From Actinomycetes bacterium (GTDB taxonomy: Bacteria; Actinomycetota; Acidimicrobiia; Acidimicrobiales; Palsa-688): a stretch of 33,365 nt of DNA. A program made the translations under genes and the position numbers. The stretch's first letter is position 1, and each line of letters begins with the position of its first letter. The stretch spans positions 64,386 through 97,750 of the forward strand of contig JAKCDU010000010.1 in assembly GCA_021838445.1 (NCBI GenBank), in the 5' to 3' direction. Below, in pieces: positions 4,787-28,668 of this stretch. The notes beneath the pieces were generated by a model. The model had not been told where the DNA came from. It ran no database searches and was given only the letters and a program-made list of their open reading frames with translations.

Positions 4787-7717
4787 ATGAAGGCGATTAC
4801 CGCGGCGGAAAATCTGATGCTCCACGCTGAGCGCGGCGTGGATCTGGCGTCGCTCTTCGACGACGCCGTCACGGGCATGGCCATCGTGGGGCTCCACGGC
4901 CGCTTCGAGGCGGTGAACCCGGCCCTGTGCCGGCTCCTCGGCTACCGCGCCGAAGAGCTGATCGGCCGCAGCACGGTCGAGGTGACCCACCCCGAGGACC
5001 GCCCCCGCTCGCATGCCGTGATCGCCCGCCTGCTGTCGGGCCGGGCCAAGACCGACCAGGCCCACAAGCGCTACGAGCGTTCCGACGGATCGACCGTGTC
5101 GGTGGTGCGGACCACGACGGTGCTGCGCGACGCCAACGGCGCCCCTACCGCGCTGTTCAGCCAGATCGTCGACGTCACCGCCCTGGCCGAGATGCAGGAG
5201 ATCGTCTCGGGCTCCGAGCAGCGCTTCCGCAAGCTGGTGACCCACGCCTCGGACGTGATCCTGCTCCTCGACCGGTCGGGCCGCATCCGGTACGCCTCGG
5301 CCGCCGCCGAACGGGTGCTCGGTTACGCCCCCGAGAGACTGGAGGGCCACCCCGCCATCGGTTTCATCCACACCGACGACCAGGAGCGGGCCCGGAACTT
5401 CTTCGCCCGCCAGAGCGCCGCCACCGGCCCCGCCTCCCAATCCGGCTACCGGATACGCCACCGCGACGGCACCTGGCGGGAGTTCGAAGTGGTCGGCACC
5501 AGCCTCTTCGACGACCCGACCATCTCGGCCCTGGTGCTCAACCTGCGCGACGTGACCGAACAGGCCGAGTACCAGCGTCGCCTCGAGGTGGGGGAACGGC
5601 GCTTCCGGACCCTCGTCGCCAACTCGTGGGACATGATCTCCCTGCACGACGCCGCCGGGCGATACGTATTCTGCAGCCCGGCCGCCACCCAGCTCGGCTA
5701 CCAGCCTGAGGACCTCATCGGCACCAGCCCGGCGGAGATCATCCACCCCGACGATCGCCCGATCGTCGCCGAGGCCTTCGGGGCCATGGTCGCCGGCGGC
5801 TCGGAGTCGGTCACCATCGAGTACCGGGTGCGCCACCGTGACGGCCGGTGGCGGTGGCTGGAGTCCATCGGCGAGAGCCGACTCGACGATCCAGCGGTGG
5901 CATCGATCGTGGTGACCAGCCGCGACGTGACCCAGCGACGCCTGCGGGTGCGCCAGCAGCGGGCCGTCGCCGAGCTCGGCCAGGCCGCCCTGCGGGGCGG
6001 GCCGGCAGCCGAGCTGCTCGAGCGGATACCGGCCACCGTGACCGAGGCCCTGGCCGTCCCGGGGTGCCTGCTGGTCCGGTTCGAACACGACGGGACCCGC
6101 ACCGTGGTGGCGTCGAACGACCTCGACGACCGGCTCTTCGGCGAATGCGCCCGCCGGCTGTGCAACGAGGCCCTCGAACAGCGGGTCCCGGTGGTCTGGA
6201 AGCGCGGCGAGGGCCACCCTTCCCGGGCCACTCCCAACGGCGGGGACTGCGGCGGGGACTGCGGGGGCGCCGCCGTACCGGTCACCCCAGCCACCGGTGC
6301 GGCCGGGGTCCTGGCCGTCTACAGCGACGACCCGGACGGTCTCGGGCCCAACGACATCGCCTTCCTAGAGACGGTGGCGAGCATCGTGGCCGCCGCCCTC
6401 ACCCGCCACGGCGTGGAGGAGGAGCTGCGCCGCCAGGCTGTCCACGACCGTCTCACCGAGCTGCCCAACCGGGCCCTGCTCATGGACCGGCTGCGCACGG
6501 CTCTGTCGCGCCTCAGCCGCCGGGGCGGACAGGTGGCCGTGCTGTTCGTCGACCTGGACAACTTCAAGCTCATCAACGACAGCCTGGGCCACTCCCTCGG
6601 CGACGCCGTCGTGGCTTCCGTCGCCCGTCGCCTGCGCGCCGCGGTCCGCTTGCCCGACACCGTCGCCCGCTTCGGTGGAGACGAGTTCGTGATCGTGAGC
6701 GAGAGCGACCACCCCGCCGCCGTGCGGGAGTTGGCCGACCGGGTCCGCCGGGTCGTCTCGGCCCCGCTGGTCGTGGCCCAAAGGAGCATCACGGTGACGG
6801 CGAGCATCGGCTACGCCTCGACCACCGACGCCGACACCTCGCCCGACAGCCTGCTGGCCGACGCCGACATGGCCATGTACGAGGCCAAGCGGGCCGGCAA
6901 GAACGCCGTGGCCCAGTTCGCCCCCGAGCTGCGCCGCCGCACCACCGACCACCTGGACGCCGTTTCGGGCATCCGCCGGGGCATCGAGGCCGGTGAGTTC
7001 CGGCTCTTCTACCAGCCCATATACGACCTCACCTCGGTCACCCCGATGGCCCACGAGGCCCTTCTGCGCTGGGAGCACCCGACGTCGGGATTGCTGCTGC
7101 CGGGGCAGTTCATCGGCTACGCCGAGAACTCCGACCTGATCCTGCCGCTCGGGAGGTGGGTGCTGCGCACCGCTTGCGCCCAGTCAGCCGAATGGAGCCG
7201 CCAGGGGCGCCCGGCCAAAGTCACCATCAACGTCTCGGCCCGGCAGCTGACCGGCTCCGACATCGCCGGCGAGGTGGCCGCGGCGATAGCCGACAGCGGG
7301 GCCCGGGCCGGCGACATCTACCTGGAGGTCACCGAGAGCGCCCTGATCACCGATCTCGACACTGCCCGGGCCGCCCTCGAGGCGCTGCGGGCCCTGGGCG
7401 TGCACCTGGGCCTCGACGACTTCGGGACGGGCTGGTCGTCGCTGTCGCAGTTGGCCCATCTGCCGTTCGACTTCGTCAAGATCGACCGCTGCTTCGTCCG
7501 CGACCTCGAGACGGTGGAGCGCACCGCGGCCCTGCTCGAGAGCATGGTCGGCCTGTGCTCCACCCTCGGCCTGGACGTGATCGTCGAGGGGGTCGAGACG
7601 GCCTCCCAACTGGCCCACGTCGAGGCGCTCGACGTCCGACTGGTCCAGGGCTTCCTCCTCGGCCGGCCCGCGCCCCCCCACCAGGTCAACCAGGCCAACC
7701 AGGCCACGCCGCGCTGA
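4787..7717 (+). CDS. PAS-PAS-PAS-GAF-GGDEF-EAL c-di-GMP signalling protein
   Basis: 976 residues and no membrane helix, so a cytoplasmic sensor. Three PAS domains occupy about 18-130, 145-260 and 270-385; the second and third end in the PAC-like YRIRHRDGTWREFE and YRVRHRDGRWRWLE. A GAF domain follows at about 395-545. The diguanylate cyclase domain has an intact GGDEF at about 630, with the inhibitory RxxD site (RLPD) exactly five residues before it. The phosphodiesterase domain keeps EALLRW (about 757), the Asn in NVSARQL, the Glu in LEVTES, DDFGTG, the Lys in FVKID and EGVET. Both activities may therefore be present, and which dominates cannot be told. The ATG is preceded by GGGAG. A DevR/DosR-like box lies upstream, so control by oxygen or NO is plausible; PAS/GAF cofactors are not determinable here. 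Confidence 0.95.
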   Translation: MKAITAAENLMLHAERGVDLASLFDDAVTGMAIVGLHGRFEAVNPALCRLLGYRAEELIGRSTVEVTHPEDRPRSHAVIARLLSGRAKTDQAHKRYERSDGSTVSVVRTTTVLRDANGAPTALFSQIVDVTALAEMQEIVSGSEQRFRKLVTHASDVILLLDRSGRIRYASAAAERVLGYAPERLEGHPAIGFIHTDDQERARNFFARQSAATGPASQSGYRIRHRDGTWREFEVVGTSLFDDPTISALVLNLRDVTEQAEYQRRLEVGERRFRTLVANSWDMISLHDAAGRYVFCSPAATQLGYQPEDLIGTSPAEIIHPDDRPIVAEAFGAMVAGGSESVTIEYRVRHRDGRWRWLESIGESRLDDPAVASIVVTSRDVTQRRLRVRQQRAVAELGQAALRGGPAAELLERIPATVTEALAVPGCLLVRFEHDGTRTVVASNDLDDRLFGECARRLCNEALEQRVPVVWKRGEGHPSRATPNGGDCGGDCGGAAVPVTPATGAAGVLAVYSDDPDGLGPNDIAFLETVASIVAAALTRHGVEEELRRQAVHDRLTELPNRALLMDRLRTALSRLSRRGGQVAVLFVDLDNFKLINDSLGHSLGDAVVASVARRLRAAVRLPDTVARFGGDEFVIVSESDHPAAVRELADRVRRVVSAPLVVAQRSITVTASIGYASTTDADTSPDSLLADADMAMYEAKRAGKNAVAQFAPELRRRTTDHLDAVSGIRRGIEAGEFRLFYQPIYDLTSVTPMAHEALLRWEHPTSGLLLPGQFIGYAENSDLILPLGRWVLRTACAQSAEWSRQGRPAKVTINVSARQLTGSDIAGEVAAAIADSGARAGDIYLEVTESALITDLDTARAALEALRALGVHLGLDDFGTGWSSLSQLAHLPFDFVKIDRCFVRDLETVERTAALLESMVGLCSTLGLDVIVEGVETASQLAHVEALDVRLVQGFLLGRPAPPHQVNQANQATPR

Positions 7718-7800
7718 CCGCCTGCTGACGCCCGGCGCGGCCTGACCGCCTGCTGACGCACGGGCGCGGCCTGACCACCTGCTGACTCCGCCCCCGGGCC
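7714..7800. repeat. Three imperfect 28-29 bp tandem repeats after the GGDEF-EAL gene
   Basis: Units begin with CTGACCGCCTGCTGACG at 7714 and 7742 and with CTGACCACCTGCTGACT at 7771. The first unit overlaps the stop codon of the upstream gene. Each contains short GC-rich segments but no good terminator stem with a T-run. Unequal spacing and decay of the third copy suggest ordinary tandem duplication. Confidence 0.8.
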
Positions 7801-7850
7801 AGCGAGCCCAACCACTCCTGGGTCTCGCCTGTCCATGTCGGTTTACCTGG

Positions 7851-7879
7851 TTGACTAGTTGCCTGACAACTGCTAGAAA
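7851..7879 (+). promoter_or_regulatory. Sigma-70-type promoter for the GntR gene
   Basis: TTGACT (7851-7856) and TAGAAA (7874-7879) are separated by exactly 17 bases. The -35 is close to consensus and the -10 is weaker. It probably drives the regulator and the coupled PLP-enzyme gene. Confidence 0.6.
7857..7871. promoter_or_regulatory. FadR/GntR-type operator within the promoter spacer
   Basis: AGTTG-CCTGA-CAACT is a perfect 5-bp inverted repeat about a 5-base centre. Its core TTGCCTGACAA closely resembles the TTGTCTGACAA type of site used by several FadR-subfamily GntR regulators. It fills most of the gap between the -35 and -10 elements, so bound protein would block transcription; autorepression by the gene just downstream is the simplest reading. 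Confidence 0.6.
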
Positions 7880-7903
7880 CAGGCGTCGACCGCAGAGTGC
7901 TCA

Positions 7904-8746
7904 TTGCCACTCGTGCAGCAACCGAGGGGAGGAATCGTCACCGCTTCGAGTAAAGGCAGAACTGAACCCTCGTTCAAAGCGGTGGACAAGGGCGTCTCTG
8001 TCGCCACGCAGATCGCCAACCAACTGGTCACGGCCATCCGATCCGGAGAGGTGGCCGTAGGGGAGCGCCTGCCGAGCGAGTCCGAACTGGCCGCCCAGTT
8101 CGGTGTGAGCCGGGCGTCGGTGCGGGAGGCGTTGAGCTCACTTCAGTTCAGCGGCTACGTCGAGACGGCGCGGGGCTCGGGAACGGTCGTCATCTCGACC
8201 ACCGCCATCGGCCAGAGCCCCATCGTCGACGCCGGGATCCGGCGTCCGTCCGATCTGATCGACGTGATCGAGGCCAGGCTCCTCGTCGAACCGGAAGTGA
8301 TCCGCCAGGGGGCCATGGACCCCCTGCCGGCCACCCTGCGCACGGCGGAGCGGATGCTCGAAGGCATGCAGGTCTCCCTGGCCGACGAACGCCACGATCA
8401 CAGCAGCGATCTCGGGTTGCACCGGGCCCTGATCCGCGCCTGTCGCAATCCCGTCCTGGTCGAGACCGCCGACCGGCTGATCTCCCAGACCGAGGGCCGG
8501 TTGTGGCGCGAGGTGCGCGATCACGCCTGGGCCGAGACCGAGCTCCCCAAGCTCTGGCTCACCCACCACATCGCCATGGCCGACGCCGTGATGAACCGCG
8601 ACCCCGAGACCGCCGCCGAAGCCAGCAGGGACCATCTCAAGTCGGTTCTGGCCAACGCCGGCCAGTCCATGCGCCTGACCAAGCGAGACCGGTGGCGGAT
8701 CGAAGCGCTGCTGGCCGACCCATCGCCGCGAAGAGAGCTCAATTGA
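7904..8746 (+). CDS. FadR-subfamily GntR transcriptional regulator
   Basis: About 280 residues. The N-terminal winged helix-turn-helix (about residues 30-105) has the GntR signature ERLPSESELAAQFGVSRASV followed by REALSSLQFSGYVETARGSGT. The C-terminal FCD domain (about 115-270) is all-helical and carries Asp/His candidates for the metal/ligand pocket in SSDLGLHRALI, THHIAMADAV and RDHLKSV. Such regulators sense small carboxylates or amino acids. The start is uncertain: TTG at 7904, GTG at 7913 and GTG at 7982 are in frame. A strong Shine-Dalgarno (GAGGGGAGG, 7924-7932) is followed by no ATG, GTG or TTG at usable distance. The stop overlaps the next start (TTGA, 8743-8746), so the two are translationally coupled. 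Confidence 0.92.
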   Translation: MPLVQQPRGGIVTASSKGRTEPSFKAVDKGVSVATQIANQLVTAIRSGEVAVGERLPSESELAAQFGVSRASVREALSSLQFSGYVETARGSGTVVISTTAIGQSPIVDAGIRRPSDLIDVIEARLLVEPEVIRQGAMDPLPATLRTAERMLEGMQVSLADERHDHSSDLGLHRALIRACRNPVLVETADRLISQTEGRLWREVRDHAWAETELPKLWLTHHIAMADAVMNRDPETAAEASRDHLKSVLANAGQSMRLTKRDRWRIEALLADPSPRRELN

Positions 8747-15337: not shown

Positions 15338-16404
15338 GCCGGGCGGCGAGCCGACCTGTGAGCCAGGGTGTGACCGACGACCAGGTGCCGGCCGGCCAGG
15401 ACCCGGTACTGGCCGTCGAGGACCTCTCGGTGTGCTTCGAGGCCGGGCGGCAACTGAAGGCCCTCTCGCAGGTGTCGGTGACCGTCGGGCGGGCCGAGAT
15501 CGTCGGGGTCGTGGGCGAGAGCGGCTGCGGCAAGAGCCTGACGGCCCTGTCGGTGATGGGGCTGCTCCCCCACAACGCCACCGTGACCGGCGGCCGGGTG
15601 GTCCTCGAGGGCGTCGATCTCGGCTCGCTCAACGGGCGGCAGCGGCGAGACCTGCGGGGCCGGCGGATGTCCATGGTCTTCCAGGAGCCCATGGTCGCCC
15701 TCAACCCGCTGATGCGGGCCGGCCGCCAGGTCACCGAGGTCCTGTCGGTGCATTCGCTGCTCAGCCGCCCGGCCCGCAAGGAGCGGACCCTGGCCCTCTT
15801 CCGGGAGGTGGGGCTGGCCGATCCCGAAGCCCGCTACCGGCAGTACCCTCACCAGCTGTCGGGGGGGATGCGTCAGCGGGTCATGATCGCCATGGCCCTG
15901 GCCGCCGAGCCATCGCTGCTCATCGCCGACGAGCCGACCACCGCCCTCGACCCGACGGTGCAGAGCCAGATCCTGCAGATCTTCCTCGACATCAGGGACC
16001 GACTCGGCACTTCGGTCCTGCTGGTCACCCACGACATGGGCGTCATCGCCGAGGTCGCCGACCGGGTCACGGTGATGTACGCCGGCCGGGTCGTCGAATC
16101 GGCTCCGGTGTCGGAGATCTTCCACCGGCCGGCCCACCCCTACACGGCGGGGCTCCTGGCCAGCATCCCGGCCCGCAACGCCGACCGGGGGCGCGCCGAG
16201 GACCTGCCGACCATTCCCGGGCGGGTACCGGCGCTGGGTGAGATCACCGCCGGCTGCCCGTTCGCCCCGCGCTGTGAGCGGGCCCAGACGCGCTGCCTGC
16301 AGGAGGAACCGGGCCTGCTCGCCGCCGGCCCCGCCCACCTGGCGGCCTGCTGGTACCCGCTGGAGCAGGACCGCCTCCCGGCGCCGGCGAGGAGCGAGAC
16401 ATGA
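15334..16404 (+). CDS. Peptide ABC transporter ATPase, DppD type
   Basis: 356 residues from GTG 15334 (overlapping GTGA); in-frame GTGs at 15358 and 15370 are alternatives. Walker A is GESGCGKSLT, the signature LSGGMRQRVMIAMAL, Walker B LLIADEPTTALD, and the H-switch Thr-His-Asp. The C-terminal oligopeptide-transporter extension carries CPFAPRCERAQTRC, a Cys motif that can bind a cluster in relatives. It should energise uptake with the DppF-type partner. The stop overlaps the next start (ATGA, 16401-16404). Confidence 0.95.
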   Translation: MSRAASRPVSQGVTDDQVPAGQDPVLAVEDLSVCFEAGRQLKALSQVSVTVGRAEIVGVVGESGCGKSLTALSVMGLLPHNATVTGGRVVLEGVDLGSLNGRQRRDLRGRRMSMVFQEPMVALNPLMRAGRQVTEVLSVHSLLSRPARKERTLALFREVGLADPEARYRQYPHQLSGGMRQRVMIAMALAAEPSLLIADEPTTALDPTVQSQILQIFLDIRDRLGTSVLLVTHDMGVIAEVADRVTVMYAGRVVESAPVSEIFHRPAHPYTAGLLASIPARNADRGRAEDLPTIPGRVPALGEITAGCPFAPRCERAQTRCLQEEPGLLAAGPAHLAACWYPLEQDRLPAPARSET

Positions 16405-17438
16405 CCTCGGCCCCTCCGCCGGAGCTGTCTCCCTCGCCACCGGCCGGCGCCCGCCCCGAGGTCCTCGTGGAGTGCACCGAGGTGGTCAAGACCTACCAGA
16501 CGGCCGCCTCGCTGCTCGGCCGGCGGTCGATGCGGGCTGTGGACGGCGTGTCCTTCACCGTCACCGCCGGGTCGGTCATGGGCCTGGTCGGCGAGACCGG
16601 TTCGGGCAAGTCCACCACCGGACGCCTGGTCCTCGGGCTCGAGCGACCCACCTCCGGCCGGGTGGTCTTCGCCGGCCAGGACCTGGCCTCGATGTCGGGC
16701 GGGGACCTTCGCCGGTTGCGACGGCAGATGCAGCCCGTCGCTCAGGACCCCTACTCAGCGCTCAACGGGCGCATGCGGGTGTCAGAGATACTCGCCGAGC
16801 CGTTCATCGTCCACCGGACCGTCCCCAAAGCCCAGATCCGGCGTCAAACCGAGGAACTGGTGGACCTGGTGGGCCTGCCCGCGGACAGCCTCGACCGGTA
16901 CCCCCACGAGTTCTCCGGCGGTCAGCGACAGCGGATCGTGATCGCCCGGGCCATCGCCCTGCAACCCCGCCTCATCGTCTGCGACGAGCCCCTGTCGGCT
17001 CTCGACGTGTCGGTCCAGTCGCAGATCATCAACCTGCTGCGGCGCCTGCAGGCGGAGTTCTCGCTCACCTACCTGTTCATCTCCCACGACCTGGGCATCG
17101 TCCGGCTGCTCTGCGACACAGTGGCGGTCATGTACCTGGGGCAGCTGATGGAACTGGCCAGCCGCGACGCCCTCTTCGACGCCCCCGCCCACCCCTACAC
17201 CCGGGCCCTGCTGGCGTCGGTACCGGTGAGCGACCCGCTGGAGCGGCGCAGCCGGGCGCGGCGCCCCCTCGGCGGTGAGGCCGAACGCGACCCGACCACC
17301 TCACAGGGCTGCCCCTTCCAGGCCCGCTGCCCCCTGGCCGAGGAGGAGTGCCGGCAGCGGCGACCGGAGTGGCGTCAGGTCGAGCCGGGCCACTTCGTGG
17401 CCTGCCACCTGGCCGGACCCGGTCACCCGGCGGCGTGA
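16401..17438 (+). CDS. Peptide ABC transporter ATPase, DppF type
   Basis: 345 residues. Walker A is GETGSGKST, Q-loop VAQDPYSALNGRM, signature FSGGQRQRIVIARAI, Walker B LIVCDEPLSALDVS, H-switch FISHDLG. The C-terminal extension has CPFQARCPLAEEECRQRRPEW as in DppF/OppF proteins. The N-terminal SLLGRRSMRAVDGVSF is also typical of the subfamily. It completes the importer with the DppD-type protein. The stop overlaps the acylase start (GTGA, 17435-17438). Confidence 0.95.
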   Translation: MTSAPPPELSPSPPAGARPEVLVECTEVVKTYQTAASLLGRRSMRAVDGVSFTVTAGSVMGLVGETGSGKSTTGRLVLGLERPTSGRVVFAGQDLASMSGGDLRRLRRQMQPVAQDPYSALNGRMRVSEILAEPFIVHRTVPKAQIRRQTEELVDLVGLPADSLDRYPHEFSGGQRQRIVIARAIALQPRLIVCDEPLSALDVSVQSQIINLLRRLQAEFSLTYLFISHDLGIVRLLCDTVAVMYLGQLMELASRDALFDAPAHPYTRALLASVPVSDPLERRSRARRPLGGEAERDPTTSQGCPFQARCPLAEEECRQRRPEWRQVEPGHFVACHLAGPGHPAA

Positions 17439-22117: not shown

Positions 22118-23080
22118 TTAGGGCTTCACAGGGGGGCTTCCGGCTCTGACGATGGCGACGAAGGCCTCCTCCAGGTTGGCCGCCACCTCGCGGACCTCGG
22201 CCCTCGGATCGTGTGCCGACAGGAGAGCCGCCACCTCGTCGGCGGGCCGGTCGACCCTCAGCGCCGTCCCGTGCAACGCCACGGAGCATCGGTGTTCCTC
22301 GAGCCAGGAGAAGGCCTGCGGCCACCGGCTGGGGCGCACTTCGGTGACGGTCCGATCACCGATGAGCTCCTGCACCGTCCCCCGGGCCGCCACTCTCCCA
22401 TCCACCATGACCACCAGACGATCGCACTGTTCAGCCTCCTCCATGTTGTGGGTGGTCACCAGCACGCCCGCCCCGGTCTCCGCGCTGGCGCGGATCTGCT
22501 CCCACAGGCGGGCTCCGCCCAGCGGCCCCACACCCGAGGTCGGTTCGTCGAGCACCAGCAGCTCGGGTCGGTGGGCCAAGGCGACAGCGAAGGCGACCTG
22601 GCGAGCCAGTCCCAGGGGAAGGTCACCGACGGGGACGTCCCGCCACGGCGACAGCTCCTCGGGCAGCCGGGTATCCGCCAGGTGAAAGGCGCCCGCCGCG
22701 AACCGCCAGTTCTCCCCGACACTCAAATCGTCGTACAGACCGAGGGACTGGGGGACGTAGCCCACCCGGGTCCGGGTCCGCCGAGACGGCGGGGCCCCGA
22801 AGAGCCGCACGCTTCCGCCCGAGGGCCGGAGCAGCCCCAGAACCAAGCGGATGAGAGTGGTCTTGCCGGCTCCGTTGGCGCCGAGAAGGCCGACCACCTC
22901 GCCCGCCGCCACCCGCATGTCGACAGATGCCACCGCCGTGAACGAACCGAAGCTCCGGGTCAGGCGCCGGGCTTGCACCAGGGAGTTCCCGTCGCTCCCG
23001 AACGCGTCGTCGCCACCCGGGCCTACCCGGCCGGCGGGGGGGTCGGCGCAGGTGGGCTCCTCACCAGGGACGGGCATCAC
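22118..23080 (-). CDS. ABC exporter ATPase B, with degenerate signature
   Basis: 320 residues from GTG 23080, with an ATG in frame one codon later. Walker A is GANGAGKTT (67-75), the Q-loop Gln111 is present in GYVPQSLGLYDD, Walker B is LLVLDEPT (174-181) and the H-switch His211 is present in VLVTTHNMEEAE. The signature is degenerate: LPLGLAR (154-160) in place of LSGGQ-type, and the D-loop has Gly185 where Asp is usual. It resembles the second half of YbhF-type double ATPases for ABC-2 exporters. The start overlaps the preceding ATPase gene by 20 bases. See ATPase A for the complementary losses. The substrate is unknown. Confidence 0.93.
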   Translation of the reverse strand: MMPVPGEEPTCADPPAGRVGPGGDDAFGSDGNSLVQARRLTRSFGSFTAVASVDMRVAAGEVVGLLGANGAGKTTLIRLVLGLLRPSGGSVRLFGAPPSRRTRTRVGYVPQSLGLYDDLSVGENWRFAAGAFHLADTRLPEELSPWRDVPVGDLPLGLARQVAFAVALAHRPELLVLDEPTSGVGPLGGARLWEQIRASAETGAGVLVTTHNMEEAEQCDRLVVMVDGRVAARGTVQELIGDRTVTEVRPSRWPQAFSWLEEHRCSVALHGTALRVDRPADEVAALLSAHDPRAEVREVAANLEEAFVAIVRAGSPPVKP

Positions 23081-23981
23081 GAGCCGAGGCCATCGCCATC
23101 TCGGACATCATCTCGGCCACCATCACGGCATCCTCGAAGTCAGCGACGACGGTCTCGACGCCGTCGGGCAGAACACCGTCGGGCGCCCACACCCGCCAGC
23201 GGGCCCCTCGCCGCCAGGAGCGTTCGGTCGGTCGCGACGAGGCCGCGACCGAGCCGACCGCACCCGGCACCGACGCCAGAATCTCCTCGGGGGAGCCACC
23301 CACCAGGGCCCTCCCGGCTGAAAGCAGCACCACCGACGAGGCGCGGGCCGCCTCGTTCACATAGGTCGTGGACAGTGCCACGGCCACCCCCTCGGAGGCG
23401 GCATGCGAGATGAGCCTCCACAGGTCGACCCGGCTGAGCGGGTCGACGCCGGTGGTCGGCTCGTCGAGGACCAGGAGCTGCGGGGCGTGGACCAGCGCCA
23501 TGGCCACGGCCAGCTTGCGCTGCATGCCACCCGAGAGGTGACCGCCGAGCCGCCGCCGGGCCCCCACCAGCCCGGTCCGGTCGAGCAGTCGACCAATCCG
23601 GGCCTCCCGTTCGGGAACTGCCAGGTGGAAAGCCTCGGCCGTGAACCTGAGGTTCTCCTCGACGGTCAGGTCACCGTACAGACCGGCGGTCGCCGGGACG
23701 TAGCCGATCAGGTGCTTGGCCGGGCGGCGCACCGCTCCACGCGTCGGGGTCACCAACCCCACGAGGGCCGACAGGCACGAGGTCTTGCCCGCGCCGTCCC
23801 CACCGACCACCACGCTCACCCGCCCGGCCAGCACGTCCAGGCTCACGTCGTACAGCCCGATCCGCCGCCCGTAGGAGACGGTCACGCCATCGAGCCCGAA
23901 CCCGACGCCCGACTGGCCCCCGACGCCCGACTGGCCCCCGGCCACCGACCGGCCCCCGTCTGGGGAGTCGTCGCCGGTCAT
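23061..23981 (-). CDS. ABC exporter ATPase A, lacking Q-loop Gln and H-loop His
   Basis: 306 residues. Walker A GGDGAGKTS (60-68, the GxDGAGKT form typical of YbhF first halves), signature LSGGMQRK (149-156) and Walker B LLVLDEPTTGVDP (169-181) are intact. The Q-loop Gln is Ala97 (GYVPATAGLY) and the H-switch His is Thr206 (ALSTTYVNEAA). An N-terminal Gly-Gln-Ser-Gly-Val repeat at about residues 15-27 comes from an 18-bp DNA duplication. The gene overlaps the permease stop by 4 bases (minus-strand ATGA) and ATPase B by 20 bases, so the three are one operon. Confidence 0.93.
   Translation of the reverse strand: MTGDDSPDGGRSVAGGQSGVGGQSGVGFGLDGVTVSYGRRIGLYDVSLDVLAGRVSVVVGGDGAGKTSCLSALVGLVTPTRGAVRRPAKHLIGYVPATAGLYGDLTVEENLRFTAEAFHLAVPEREARIGRLLDRTGLVGARRRLGGHLSGGMQRKLAVAMALVHAPQLLVLDEPTTGVDPLSRVDLWRLISHAASEGVAVALSTTYVNEAARASSVVLLSAGRALVGGSPEEILASVPGAVGSVAASSRPTERSWRRGARWRVWAPDGVLPDGVETVVADFEDAVMVAEMMSEMAMASARDARPW
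23903..23938. repeat. Perfect 18-bp tandem duplication within ATPase A
   Basis: CGACGCCCGACTGGCCCC occurs twice head to tail, in frame, near the 5' end of the ATPase A gene and adds a repeated Gly-Gln-Ser-Gly-Val-Gly. It lies before the nucleotide-binding fold and should be tolerated. Confidence 0.9.
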
Positions 23982-25057
23982 CCCGCCGCTCCTTCGGCCC
24001 CGGGGCTCTGTCTCGTAGTTCGGGCGGGGCCCGGCGCCAGGTCGCGGCGGAACCTGACGACGGCCAGACCGAACACCGCCGCGGCCAGAACGGCGAGGAG
24101 GACGATGGGCTGGACCAGGGTCCCGAAGGGCGCCGCCTTGAGCATCACTCCCCGGCTGATCTCGATGAAATAGGTGAGCGGGAGGACGTAGGAGATCCAG
24201 CGGACCCCGGCCGCCATCGACTCCACCGGGAAGATCAGGCCCGACAGGAGGACCTGGGGCAGCAGGAGCATGAAGGCCAGCTGAATGGCCTGTCCCTGGT
24301 TCTGTGAGACGGTCGACACGAGAACGCCCATGCCGAGGGTCACCACCAAGAACAGCGCCGAGCCCAACACGAAGGTCGCCACGTTGCCGACGAAGGGCAC
24401 GTGGAAGAGGCCCATCCCGACGGCCAGGACCAGGGCCAGGTCGGCGGCCGCGACCACCAGGTAGGGCGCCACCTTACCCACGATGACCTCGAACGCCCGG
24501 AACGGCATGACGGCGAGCTGCTCCAGCGTGCCGGCCTGGCGCTCCCGGACCACGCCCAGGCTCGTTATGAGCGTGCCTATGAACACCAGGATCAAGCCCG
24601 CCAGCCCGGGGATCATGACCCAGGAGGTCTTGAGCTGAGGGTTGTAGAGGATGCGCAGCGGCAGGGCACGGGCCCCTCCGCCGGGTACGCCCGCCTCGAG
24701 ACGGCTGAGCGCCGTCCGGGCCGTCTGGACCGAGAACAGCTGGGTGCCGTCCATGAGCACCGACGTCCCGGCCGGGCTGGTAACCATCGCCACGGCTGCA
24801 TCCCCGTCTCGAAGCCGCGCCTCGGCCGTCGCTCGGCTTCCGACCACGTCGATGCCGACCACGTGGAACGGGGCGGGCAGCGTCGATGCCGCCTCGGCTG
24901 CGTCCGGGCCGACCACGACGGTCGGAATGTCGTGTACCTCGAAGTTGGCGGCGAAGCCGAAGACCACCAGCAGCAGCACCGGCAGGATGATCATCATGGC
25001 GAGCGTCCGTCGGTCCCGCCTGAGCTGCCGGAACTCCTTGGTCACCATCGCCCACAC
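23978..25057 (-). CDS. ABC-2 type exporter permease (YbhR/YhhJ-like)
   Basis: 359 residues from GTG 25057 (VWAMVTKEFRQLRRDRRTL...), which has GGGGGT five bases upstream; the ATG at 25048 is an alternative. The first helix at about residues 22-40 is followed by an extracytoplasmic domain of about 130 residues. Five further helices from about 165 to 340 include RERQAGTLEQLAVMPFRAFE between the second and third helices, a hallmark of ABC-2 permeases. It should form a homodimeric channel with ATPases A and B to export a drug, lipid or polymer; no HlyD-like adaptor is visible. The open frame runs upstream to 25534 through a YciI-like remnant, which I do not regard as part of this protein. Confidence 0.92.
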   Translation of the reverse strand: MWAMVTKEFRQLRRDRRTLAMMIILPVLLLVVFGFAANFEVHDIPTVVVGPDAAEAASTLPAPFHVVGIDVVGSRATAEARLRDGDAAVAMVTSPAGTSVLMDGTQLFSVQTARTALSRLEAGVPGGGARALPLRILYNPQLKTSWVMIPGLAGLILVFIGTLITSLGVVRERQAGTLEQLAVMPFRAFEVIVGKVAPYLVVAAADLALVLAVGMGLFHVPFVGNVATFVLGSALFLVVTLGMGVLVSTVSQNQGQAIQLAFMLLLPQVLLSGLIFPVESMAAGVRWISYVLPLTYFIEISRGVMLKAAPFGTLVQPIVLLAVLAAAVFGLAVVRFRRDLAPGPARTTRQSPGAEGAAG

Positions 25058-25108
25058 CGCCGACCCCCGATCCCGATCCCCGATCCCCAGAGCCCGACGA
25101 ACTATAGG

Positions 25109-25294
25109 CTCCACCACACCCAGCCCCCAGGAACCGGTGCTGTCGAGCACCGGTCCGAAGACCACCGTCCGGCCCTCGTCGACCAGCGGCTGCCAGTAGC
25201 TCGCGTGGCGGCCCATGATCTCCCGTTCGGCGTCGGTCATTTCCGGGGCGAAGTCGGGCCGGGGCGCCTTCAGCCGGAATACGAAAGTGGCCGT
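25109..25294 (-). pseudogene. YciI-like domain remnant, start codon lost and 3' end truncated
   Basis: In the same frame as the downstream permease, 62 codons encode a segment reading ATFVFRLKAPRPDFAPEM, then TDAEREIMGRHASYWQPL and GRTVVFGPVLDSTGSWGLGVVE. This matches the N-terminal two thirds of YciI-like small proteins (usually about 95 residues). Members commonly begin Met-Ala-Thr-Phe; here the matching first codon is ACG at 25292-25294, one base from ATG. After GVVE similarity stops and low-complexity codons lead into the permease gene. The frame has stayed open. Either a decayed gene or, less likely, an N-terminal fusion domain of the permease. Gene loss at a rearrangement point is inference. 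Confidence 0.65.
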
Positions 25295-25391
25295 GGCGCC
25301 AGTGCAGGAGCCGAACCAGCGCGTCGACACCACCACCAGCGCCAACGCGCTAGCAGAGCTACGGGTTGAAACCCTCGACCAGACGTTGAGA

Positions 25392-25411
25392 CCCGGGACC
25401 TTCGGCCCTTT
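25392..25411. promoter_or_regulatory. DevR/DosR-like box upstream of the secreted repeat protein
   Basis: The core GGGACCTTCGGCCC (25395-25408) differs from the core of the 4698 box by one base and matches 11 of 14 core positions of the mycobacterial DosR consensus. The outer TT flank is not conserved. GATACCGCA follows at 25421; the first box is followed by GATACTGCA. The start codon is 112 bases from the box start. Confidence 0.5.
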
Positions 25412-25503
25412 TCCGGCCCCGATACCGCAACTCCGGTACAGCCGGTCCCTTCCCGTCCCGACAACCTGGTGTCCCAGCAGGTGCAACCGAAAGTGGTTCC
25501 CGA

Positions 25504-28500
25504 ATGAAAGAACGTCATCAGGTGCCTGGCGCATCGACTATCACGACCCGCCTGATAGCCATGATGGCCGTCCTGGTGACCATCGTCGCCGGCTTGGCCG
25601 GCTTCGCCCCCGCCGCCCGCGCTGCGACCACATCTGTCACTTATAATGCCACAGTTACCATCCCGGCTCCTCCCTCGTCGAGCTTCGCCGGGGCCGGCGC
25701 CGGCGGCGACGGCTGGGCGGTAGCCCTTTCGTCCACCCAGATATTCAACGTCTTCCACCACCAGACCACCCTCATGGTCATGTGCCACAACCAGTCCGAC
25801 GCCTCGGCCTGCTGGGGCAGCTACAAGACCGTCACCGACACCTCGGGCAACGGGTTCAGCACCTCTGGCCAACCGGGCCTCTACCTCGACCAGACCAACC
25901 ACTATCTCTACGTGTGGGCCACCCGTACCAGCGACAGCACCGCCGGGGTCGTCTGCATCGATACCCAGTCGGCGGCGGCCAACCCCTTCTGCGGCTTCAC
26001 CACCCTCTCGGCCCTCAACCAGGCTCCCTACTCGGGCTTCAGCGGTATCAGCGACCCGGTGATGGTGGGCAGCCACTGGTACGCGTTCAACGACGTGGTT
26101 GGGCCCGCCTCGGGCAGCGAGAACACCCTCATGTGCTTCGACGTGTCCACCGACGCGGCCTGCGCCAGCCAGCCCTACCCGGTGGACTTCGGCGGTGGAT
26201 CGGTCACCTCGGCCTCTCCCAACGACAGCATCGCCGCCCTCGGCACCAAGATCGTCCTGCAGATCCCGGGCGGGTTCCTGGCCTGCTTCGACACCACCAC
26301 CAACTCATCGTGCGCCGGGTCGTGGCCGGTGGCCGTTACCGGCGGCACGGCCGGCGCCCCCCTGCCGGTGCTCACCTCCACCGGGGCCTACGCCGGCGTG
26401 TGCCTGCCGACGTCGGCGCCTCAGTGCTGGGACATGACCGGTGCCACGCTGGCCGCGCCGGCCGGGCTGTCGGCCCTCACCGGCAACGCCAACTGGAACG
26501 GCCCGGCCACCGTCATCGGGGCCCGCATCTACTTCCCCAACGGCAACACCAACGCCGCCGAGTGCTACGACTACTCGACCGGCGCCTCTTGCACCAACTT
26601 CCCTCTGGCCATCAGCAACCTGAGCCTCCTCTACACCATCAACCCCGACCCCAGCCGGCCCACCTGCCTGTGGGTCAACGCCAACGGCGGTACCAGCCAG
26701 ATCCAGAACTTCGACGCCTACACCGGGGGCACCTGCGCCAACGCCCCGCTGCGGCTCACCGCGTCGAGCGTCGTGGCCACCAACCAGGTCTGCGTCCCTG
26801 CCTCCTGGACCTCGCTGTCGGTGCTCAGCCCGTCGCCCAGCTCCTACACCAGCGGCACGGTCGCCTTCGATGACGCCGACGGCAATCCCATCTCCGGCGT
26901 CGCCACCCACACCCTCGACGCCACGGGCACCACCAGCCTCACCGACCTAAATTTGTCATCTACGGTGCCGCTACCACAGTTCCTGGTGACACTCACCGGG
27001 ACCACGGGGTCACTCGGCTCGGTCCAGATCCAGGTCACCTGGACCGGCTCCTATGACCCCTCGTGCGTGCAGGGCGGCACATCCGTCACCACCGCGACAT
27101 CCCCGAGCACGCCCAGCAGCCCAACCGCGTCAGCCGGTGACGGGGCCGCCACGGTGTCGTGGACGCCGCCTTCTTCGGACGGCTATTCCCCCATCACCGG
27201 CTACACCGCGACCGCCTACGACTCCCATGGGAACGTCGCCGGTACCTGCACCGCTCCGGGGAACGCCACGTCGTGCGTCATCTCCCCCCTGACCGACGGG
27301 CACCCCTACACCTTCACCGTCACCGCCACGAACGTCATCGGCAGCGCTTCGAGCCTGGCGTCGCCGGCGGCCGTCCCCATGAGCCCTTCGATCACCACCA
27401 CGTCAGTTACGGCAGGTGACATCGGTGCCGTCTACGACCGGGCCCTCGCCGTCACCGGCGGAGTCGGTCCCTACACCTGGCAGCTCGGCACCGGCACCCT
27501 GCCCCCGGGTCTCGGCCTCGGCACCGACGGCCACGTAACCGGGACGCCGACCACGGCTGGAAGCTATCCGGTCACGGTGCAGGTCACAGACGTCAACGGC
27601 CAGACCGACACCCGGCAGCTCACTCTGGTGGTCAACCCGGCCACCACCGTGCCGGCCGTCCCCGTGAACGCCACCCCCGCCGGCATGCCGGTCACCCAAC
27701 AGCTGGTCCCCCAGGGCGGAACCGGCCCGTTCAGCTGGACCCTTTCATCGGGGACCCTCCCGCCCGGCGTCACGTTGAACCCTGACGGCACCTTCACCGG
27801 GACCTCGACCAGCCCCGGTACCTACACCTTCACCGTCGAGGTCACCGACGTCAACGGCCAGACCGCCCTACAGACGGTAACGGTGACCGTACAGCCGTCC
27901 GACCTCAACACCCGGCCCATCGCCGCCACCCCCGACGCCAAGGGCTACTGGGTCGCCAACCCCAACGGCGCGGTGGTCCCCTTCGGTGACGCCAAGTCCT
28001 ACGGCTCCATGGCCTCCACCCCGCTGGCCGCTCCGATCAAGGGCATCGCCGCCACCAACGACGGGCAGGGCTACTGGCTGGTCGGCGCCGACGGCGGCGT
28101 GTTCGCCCTCGGCGACGCCCACTTCTACGGCTCGGCCGTGGGAACCCACCTGGGCGGCTCCATCCTCGGGCTGACCCCCACCCCCGACGGCAAGGGCTAC
28201 TGGCTGGTCGGCGCCGACGGCGGCGTGTTCGCCTTCGGTGACGCCGGCTTCTACGGCTCGGCCGTCGGCCTGGCCAAGCACGGGACGGTGGAGAGCCTGG
28301 CCGTCACCCCCGACGCCCACGGCTACTGGCTGGTCGGCACCGACGGCGGCGTGTTCGCCTTCGGCGACGCCCACTTCTACGGCTCGGCCGCCAACATCCA
28401 CCTGGCCGGCCCCGTCACCGGGATCGCCGCCACCAACGACGGGCAGGGCTACTGGCTGGTCGGCACCGACGGCGGGGTGTTCGCCTTCGGCGACGCCCAC

Positions 28501-28668
28501 TTCTACGGCTCGCTCTCCCGGATCCAGCTGAACGGGCCGGCCACCGGCATCATCGCCAGCCCCGACTCACAGGGCTACTGGCTGGTCGCCAACGACGGCG
28601 GCGTGTTCGCCTTCGGCAGCTCCAAGTTCATGGGTTCCATCCCCGGCTGGACCCCGCCGGCGGCCTGA
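25504..28668 (+). CDS. Large secreted protein: unknown N-domain, FN3, two Ig-like domains and six 42-residue repeats
   Basis: 1054 residues. Residues 1-40 form a Sec signal peptide (Arg16, hydrophobic MMAVLVTIVAGLAGF, cleavage after AARA). Residues of about 42-530 are a Ser/Thr/Gly/Cys-rich domain I do not recognise, with many regularly spaced Cys. A fibronectin type III domain lies at about 536-625 (SWTPPSSDGYSPITGYT). Two He_PIG-like Ig domains follow at about 626-712 and 715-797, each with a TLPPG motif. Residues of about 800-1050 contain six repeats with GYW at an exact 42-residue period, consensus GYWLVG.DGGVFAFGDA.FYGS, likely a six-bladed beta-propeller. It should be secreted or wall-associated and bind a polymer or surface ligand; no catalytic motif is seen. 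The start lacks a clear ribosome-binding site. A DevR-like box is upstream. Confidence 0.88.
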   Translation: MKERHQVPGASTITTRLIAMMAVLVTIVAGLAGFAPAARAATTSVTYNATVTIPAPPSSSFAGAGAGGDGWAVALSSTQIFNVFHHQTTLMVMCHNQSDASACWGSYKTVTDTSGNGFSTSGQPGLYLDQTNHYLYVWATRTSDSTAGVVCIDTQSAAANPFCGFTTLSALNQAPYSGFSGISDPVMVGSHWYAFNDVVGPASGSENTLMCFDVSTDAACASQPYPVDFGGGSVTSASPNDSIAALGTKIVLQIPGGFLACFDTTTNSSCAGSWPVAVTGGTAGAPLPVLTSTGAYAGVCLPTSAPQCWDMTGATLAAPAGLSALTGNANWNGPATVIGARIYFPNGNTNAAECYDYSTGASCTNFPLAISNLSLLYTINPDPSRPTCLWVNANGGTSQIQNFDAYTGGTCANAPLRLTASSVVATNQVCVPASWTSLSVLSPSPSSYTSGTVAFDDADGNPISGVATHTLDATGTTSLTDLNLSSTVPLPQFLVTLTGTTGSLGSVQIQVTWTGSYDPSCVQGGTSVTTATSPSTPSSPTASAGDGAATVSWTPPSSDGYSPITGYTATAYDSHGNVAGTCTAPGNATSCVISPLTDGHPYTFTVTATNVIGSASSLASPAAVPMSPSITTTSVTAGDIGAVYDRALAVTGGVGPYTWQLGTGTLPPGLGLGTDGHVTGTPTTAGSYPVTVQVTDVNGQTDTRQLTLVVNPATTVPAVPVNATPAGMPVTQQLVPQGGTGPFSWTLSSGTLPPGVTLNPDGTFTGTSTSPGTYTFTVEVTDVNGQTALQTVTVTVQPSDLNTRPIAATPDAKGYWVANPNGAVVPFGDAKSYGSMASTPLAAPIKGIAATNDGQGYWLVGADGGVFALGDAHFYGSAVGTHLGGSILGLTPTPDGKGYWLVGADGGVFAFGDAGFYGSAVGLAKHGTVESLAVTPDAHGYWLVGTDGGVFAFGDAHFYGSAANIHLAGPVTGIAATNDGQGYWLVGTDGGVFAFGDAHFYGSLSRIQLNGPATGIIASPDSQGYWLVANDGGVFAFGSSKFMGSIPGWTPPAA
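27943..28665 (+). repeat. Six coding repeats with exact 126-bp period
   Basis: GGCTACTGG begins at 27943, 28069, 28195, 28321, 28447 and 28573, that is every 126 bases without exception. Copies 2-5 are highly similar even at DNA level while copies 1 and 6 are more divergent, as expected of an array growing from its middle. The repeats are in frame and encode the C-terminal propeller-like region, not a CRISPR. Confidence 0.95.

Follow-up and report, generated by a model that had tools for sequence, protein, structure and literature searches.

A split YbhF/RbbA-type ABC operon with one permease gene and two ATPases whose motif changes fall in one composite ATP site

Among ATP-binding cassette (ABC) transporters, the closest described relatives of the system reported here are YbhF (with YbhS, YbhR and YbhG) and RbbA of Escherichia coli. 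Their first nucleotide-binding domain (NBD1) has the signature LSGGM, a Walker A motif beginning GPDG and no H-loop His, that position being Ser in YbhF and Ala in RbbA; NBD2 has the His and an LPLG signature, and the associated permease is homologous to that of our locus. Changes confined to one composite ATP site, with the other site canonical, are also described for TAP1/2, TM287/288, TmrAB and MRP1 (PMC7756269, PMC4242082), and the ribose importer RbsAC2 is reported to combine two unlike NBDs and one degenerate site with a homodimeric permease, a stoichiometry that is itself predicted (PMC11466899). We analyzed a 33,365-nucleotide stretch of an Acidimicrobiales genome (Palsa-688; assembly GCA_021838445.1, contig JAKCDU010000010.1, positions 64,386 to 97,750), called the window below, in which an ABC-2 permease gene (P) is followed by genes for two ATPases (A and B). 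We consider it likely that their products form an ABC-2, type V-like exporter, in which an obligate A-B heterodimer with one hydrolytic and one ATP-holding site works on a P homodimer.

The altered motifs of A and B converge on a single composite site, made up of the Walker A, Q-loop and H-loop of A and the signature and D-loop of B; the other site is canonical (Table 1). The first-pass annotation had claimed that A lacks the Q-loop Gln and the H-loop His and keeps LSGGM, that B keeps both residues and has a changed signature and D-loop, and that all these losses share one site. Direct inspection found every residue as described, and alignment to the E. coli proteins YbhF and RbbA and to ABCA7 cassettes of known structure, which confirmed the motif register, placed the residues in the same way and bore out the division into one altered and one canonical site. 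A Walker A Asn-to-Asp substitution in A is a fifth change, beyond those of that first reading. The Walker A Lys and the Walker B Asp-Glu are present in both proteins. The window pair has the features of the YbhF/RbbA type, a first domain without His but with Ser-Gly-Gly (SGG) in its signature, and a second with His and an altered signature; unlike the window, however, the E. coli proteins keep the Q-loop Gln of NBD1 and the D-loop Asp of NBD2.

The same division recurs in relatives of the window system. These were taken from its family (32 genomes), its class (395 genomes, of which 35 gave a match at E<=1e-60) and its phylum (396 genomes, of which 20 did so, a set that shares members with that of the class), and from one pattern scan of named genome contigs, of whose longer list the best 80 matches were used. 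Family matches counted as orthologues at E<=1e-70 only, with five weaker ones serving as controls at most; four of the weakest of the 29 phylum matches (G546, G507, G465, G575) were left out. All domains were aligned to one profile. Because our first pairing rule required loss of His and presence of SGG in A and a His in B, counts for these motifs come from a position-only survey, which paired the best A-type domain with the next cassette by position. It comprises 140 loci, near-identical ones included; at 10 of them the A domain stands without a partner in reach, and at 3 the partner is cut. The H-loop His is absent and SGG present in 140/140 A-type domains, counts to be read with the fact that the A profile was itself built from domains without His; among readable partners, His is kept in 127/127 and SGG is absent in 121/127. 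Where the partner retains SGG, as six do (LSGGW or LSGGL), most of the signature is kept, and the changes in the site are A's missing His and A's Walker A Asp. The asymmetry is common, by record titles, to Bacteroidota, Ignavibacteria, Proteobacteria, Chloroflexi, Acidobacteria and Actinobacteria records; its core, His loss in A and signature change in B, is on sequence grounds an old family trait.

Removing three pairs redundant at 95% identity and one spurious pair (L064, with a different exporter type) reduced 128 pairs to 124. Among these, the Q-loop Gln is lost in A in 77 and in B in none, and the D-loop Asp is lost in A in none and in B in 38. The scan patterns, DEP[TS]TGVD and V[ST][VA]VVGGDG, by design pick out A domains that have the D-loop Asp or the Walker A Asp; in the 53 pairs from outside the scan, A has the D-loop Asp in 53/53 and the Walker A Asp in 52/52 readable domains. 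Single motif losses are not rare in themselves. In a control set of 29 further ABC cassettes drawn from the window's genome and its family, with some entering twice, the H-loop His is missing from 16, the Q-loop Gln from 8, an SGG signature from 8 and the D-loop Asp from 4. The special feature of the A-B pair is the way in which such losses are shared out between its two partners. Genomes of this family also encode a distinct set of ABC-2-like ATPases, with Gln in the H-loop (TTQYL) and a YSGGM or FSGGM signature (loci L003, L019, L021-L024, L027, L034, L035, L037 and L038); Gln occupies the H-loop position in 15/29 control cassettes, other types counted.

In a quick tree built without the motif columns, the window falls in a starred clade of 49 non-redundant pairs (SH-aLRT 100). 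Of the 121 inner branches of this tree 47 are starred and 37 are weak (drawn open), and many of its rows are of odd composition. Throughout the clade (49/49), A has lost the Gln and the third signature residue of B is changed, A keeps its D-loop Asp and B its Gln, and both partners keep the Glu. B's D-loop Asp is lost in 33/49 and survives in 16/49, so that loss of the Gln is clade-wide and loss of the D-loop Asp scattered. None of the members (0/49) is canonical at both sites. On the quick tree, and approximately, the Gln position of A changed at least 6 times and the D-loop Asp position of B at least 7, always in the same composite site. The third signature residue is changed in 76/77 pairs that have lost the Gln, as against 15/47 that have kept it (L064 pair excluded), a difference that comes mostly from two large clades. 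An independent-pairs test of covariation on starred branches gave one pair for Gln loss against signature and two each for signature and D-loop against Gln loss, too few to give the test power and with no consistent direction.

The third position of Walker A is Asp in 123/123 readable A domains, Asn in 124/124 B domains, and Asp in 0/27 readable control cassettes. Asp62 of A stands at what we take to be the position of the Walker A Asn of TAP. Each D-loop Asp of TAP serves the site whose Walker A lies in the opposite subunit, and contacts the backbone of a Walker A Asn there; mutation of the D-loop serving the degenerate site is reported to leave transport wild-type-like, whereas the other mutation uncouples it (PMC4242082). 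TAP thus resembles the window clade in tolerating D-loop change on the degenerate side. By analogy, we infer that the D-loop of A would serve the working site and be invariant on that account, and that B can dispense with its D-loop Asp, which would otherwise bring two Asp residues side by side.

With its losses in one composite site and its other site canonical, the system belongs with degenerate-site exporters, but the catalytic Glu is not missing. Its loss is a described hallmark of degenerate sites (PMC7544095), and it is mostly lost in TAP1/2, TM287/288, TmrAB and MRP1; here, every one of the 124 pairs retains it, A reading LDE in 124/124 domains, and the Walker A Lys is present in 123/123 readable A domains. 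This lineage thus reaches degeneracy by a different route, and slow hydrolysis may still be possible at the altered site.

The genes of the operon overlap: the stop of P overlaps the ATG of A (ATGA), and the end of A overlaps the start of B, as read at both junctions. Given these overlaps, P, A and B are probably translated together. Pfam identifies two ABC_tran domains and one ABC2_membrane_3 domain in their products, and the best NCBIfam match of all three is the RbbA profile, of which A matches 4-227 (1.7e-49), B 264-492 (9.9e-57) and P 541-906. Since they cover successive parts of this profile, P-A-B is, by its sequence matches, a split member of the YbhF/RbbA lineage, although the three separate proteins score 192.5, 168.5 and 154.1 bits, below the RbbA equivalog cut-off (NF033858, >=1050 bits). 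The earlier description of the system as like a split YbhF is upheld in these profile matches, in the shared His loss and LPLG signature, and in natural A-B fusions, A and B being in one frame in 5/49 clade members and 14/124 pairs; it is incomplete as regards the permease, of which there is one gene, not two. L047, a locus from the same family as the window's genome, encodes A and B as one 520-aa protein (7152-8714), a natural single chain suited to structural studies; at L111, NBD1 and NBD2 are in one frame and the Q-loop Gln of A is replaced by Glu. YbhF and RbbA differ from the window further in that their NBDs are fused, that there are two permeases, and that the adjoining YbhG or YhiI is annotated as of HlyD/membrane fusion type. 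No HlyD-type membrane fusion gene was found among the window neighbors put through Pfam and NCBIfam (the MFS permease, PepE, the penicillin amidase and the Ig-repeat protein); relatives were not searched for HlyD.

P is the sole permease found in the operon, and the arrangement P-A-B with one permease gene recurs in 47 of the 49 clade operons, the other two (L056, L169) beginning at a contig edge. Outside the clade, two permeases (A-B-P-P or A-P-P-B) accompany 58 of 75 pairs, and P-A-B occurs in three (L164, L181, L182); the remaining 14 are unassigned, since either a contig edge intervenes or at most one permease could be detected, and L090 and L110 were left out of the P-A-B count despite one upstream permease. 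L164 keeps the Q-loop Gln and D-loop Asp, lacks the His and has the signature LPTG. At L109, a 2.2-kb permease frame may hold both permeases. A FastTree analysis, limited to open reading frames (ORFs) of 900-1350 bases, joins the P-A-B permeases in one group (support 100), apart from P1 (95) and P2 (94) of the two-permease systems. The window's genome, which is 96% complete, holds one strong P and no second homologue at E<1e-10; two weak matches have values of 5e-7 and 4e-5. In 9 of 12 chosen P-A-B genomes, a P-profile search at 1e-10 returned a single match. In 37/50 P-A-B loci, there is no other ORF with >=4 predicted membrane segments on the same strand within 2.5 kb, some loci ending sooner. 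Since each operon carries a single permease gene and the genome shows no close second copy, the simplest reading of the channel would be a P homodimer, giving the composition P2AB. Heterodimeric exporters such as TAP1/2 presumably carry transmembrane domain and NBD on one chain; in the window, the transmembrane domain is a separate, apparently single, gene product. The gene content agrees with a putative P2AB arrangement like that of RbsAC2. RbsAC2 differs in being an importer, in its fused NBDs and in a second Walker A without Lys (PMC11466899).

These data suggest the following mechanism. A and B would pair head-to-tail as an obligate heterodimer, a pairing in keeping with the observed complementarity of their motifs and with the natural fusions, and favored because neither an A2 nor a B2 homodimer would contain a canonical site. 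Site 2, comprising Walker A/B, Q-loop and H-loop of B with LSGGM and the D-loop Asp of A, would hydrolyze ATP. Site 1, comprising Walker A/B of A, without its Q-loop and H-loop residues, and LPLG and the altered D-loop of B, would still bind ATP, since A keeps the Lys and Glu. Turnover there would be slow or nil and, by analogy with TAP, MRP1 and TM287/288, site 1 would mainly hold the NBDs together. Two copies of P would form the channel. For the clade as a whole we lean, with some reserve, towards the same P2AB design: a symmetric channel driven by a permanently asymmetric motor, whose degenerate site retains its Glu and whose Asp-Asp contact has been relieved repeatedly by loss of the D-loop Asp of B.

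As to its role, the genes beside the operon suggest that the system is likely to be an inducible efflux pump. A TetR-like gene, recognized by eye, adjoins 17/50 P-A-B operons, 13 times on the same strand, a position that suggests a pump induced to expel a toxic small molecule. On plasmid p174 of Gordonia polyisoprenivorans VH2 (GPOL_RS25750-25765), permease, ATPase and ATPase follow in the same order as in the window, the permease being 55.7% identical; by eye, A lacks the Q-loop Gln and H-loop His, and the B signature is LPLGTQR. The Gordonia operon differs in keeping the D-loop Asp and in having a TetR gene downstream, the order being permease, ATPase, ATPase and TetR with 4-base overlaps. 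In E. coli, ybhGFSR adjoins cecR, which we take to be of the TetR family. YbhFSR has been reported as a tetracycline exporter (PMC7190983).

Several observations weigh against this overall picture. A TetR-like neighbor is not found at the window itself, where the Gordonia TetR query gave nothing convincing. The D-loop Asp of B is kept in 16/49 clade members, implying that its loss is not required. A weak further P-like match appears at 1e-10 in 3 of the 12 chosen P-A-B genomes, and 13/50 P-A-B loci do have a further membrane ORF within the limits given above. Finally, the catalytic Glu of A is present in 124/124 pairs, so that site 1 could hydrolyze ATP slowly or under regulation.

Carried further, this last point leads to a reading in which the heterodimer is right and the single catalytic site wrong: both sites would hydrolyze ATP, site 1 being a slow or regulated second catalytic site. 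The conserved Lys and Glu of A, and the standing of Glu loss as a hallmark of degeneracy (PMC7544095), speak for it. We think it unlikely, as site 1 lacks the His, the Gln and the Ser-Gly-Gly of the signature, and 33 of the 49 clade members have lost the D-loop Asp there as well. In a second reading, the A-B heterodimer would stand, but P would pair with a divergent permease encoded elsewhere in the genome, forming an asymmetric channel as in YbhSR. It draws on the two permeases of most pairs outside the clade (58/75) and on the weak P-like matches, both in the window's own genome and in the three genomes just mentioned; against these stand the single permease gene of 47/49 clade operons, the single match in 9/12 genomes, and the separation of the clade permeases from both P1 and P2, which together make it quite improbable. 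That A and B drive two independent homodimeric transporters, adjacent by chance, has little to recommend it beyond the fact that neighboring ABC genes can serve different transporters: neither homodimer would have a canonical site, the genes overlap, they are fused in several lineages, and one permease was found. Several lost motif residues at one locus might also be put down to relaxed selection, or to an operon decaying in the window's genome, a negligible prospect when 49 divergent clade members share the same division of losses with open frames and invariant site 2 residues; recurrence of this division in the relatives examined rules out chance or decay as the source of the motif losses.

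A literature search, mostly without subscription papers, found no account of a degenerate site in YbhF/RbbA and no description of an ABC-2 exporter in which one permease is combined with two unlike NBDs. The available text of PMC7190983 gives the YbhF motifs as present and does not use the word 'degenerate'; that of PMC8277102 contains no statement on a YbhF/RbbA degenerate site; and the tables of PMC11466899, a census of Bacillus subtilis, list 0/17 type V or hybrid exporters with two unlike NBDs. A heterodimer with one degenerate site is an already known kind, and it is the extra changes and the one-permease design that set this one apart.

Table 1. Coordinates of the P-A-B genes, their motif residues and neighboring features in the window
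Feature	Position	Strand	Details
P, ABC-2 permease (ABC2_membrane_3)	23978..25057	(-)	359 aa from GTG; Pfam PF12698, 2.5e-35 on longer open frame
A, ATPase, RbbA profile NBD1	23061..23981	(-)	306 aa; supplies LSGGM, D-loop Asp180 and the degenerate Walker A/Q/H half-site
B, ATPase, RbbA profile NBD2	22118..23080	(-)	320 aa; canonical Walker A/Q/H, degenerate signature and D-loop
A Asp62, Walker A Asn-to-Asp	23796..23798	(-)	B carries Asn69 there
A Ala97, replacing Q-loop Gln	23691..23693	(-)	residue check and alignment
A Thr206, replacing H-loop His	23364..23366	(-)	residue check and alignment
A signature LSGGM, residues 149-153, intact	23523..23537	(-)	residue check and alignment
A Walker B Asp173-Glu174, catalytic Glu retained	23460..23465	(-)	residue check
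B degenerate signature LPLGLAR, residues 154-160	22601..22621	(-)	residue check and alignment
B Gly185, replacing D-loop Asp	22526..22528	(-)	residue check and alignment
B Gln111, Q-loop, intact	22748..22750	(-)	residue check and alignment
B His211, H-loop, intact	22448..22450	(-)	residue check and alignment
Open frame upstream of the P start	25058-25534	(-)	159 codons, the frame of P reaching to 25534; part YCII-like, Pfam E 0.013, below cut-off
Divergent gene	25504-28668	(+)	1054-aa protein with Ig-like and fn3 domains and C-terminal GGVFAFGDAxFYGS-type repeats (repeats by eye)
Two more ABC cassettes	15403-17177	(+)	motifs of the usual kind (Gln, SGG, Asp, His); penicillin amidase and PepE genes come next; may belong to a peptide importer

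The retention of one dead ATP site by so many ABC transporters has long been a puzzle, usually studied where the membrane halves also differ. An asymmetric motor on an apparently single-gene channel would separate the effect of the motor from that of the channel, and Gordonia, Demequina and Cellulomonas can be named as carriers in which to test it. If the P2AB reading is true, motor asymmetry needs no channel asymmetry. In this family, which spans a wide range of bacteria, a site is also seen to stay degenerate and yet retain its catalytic glutamate.

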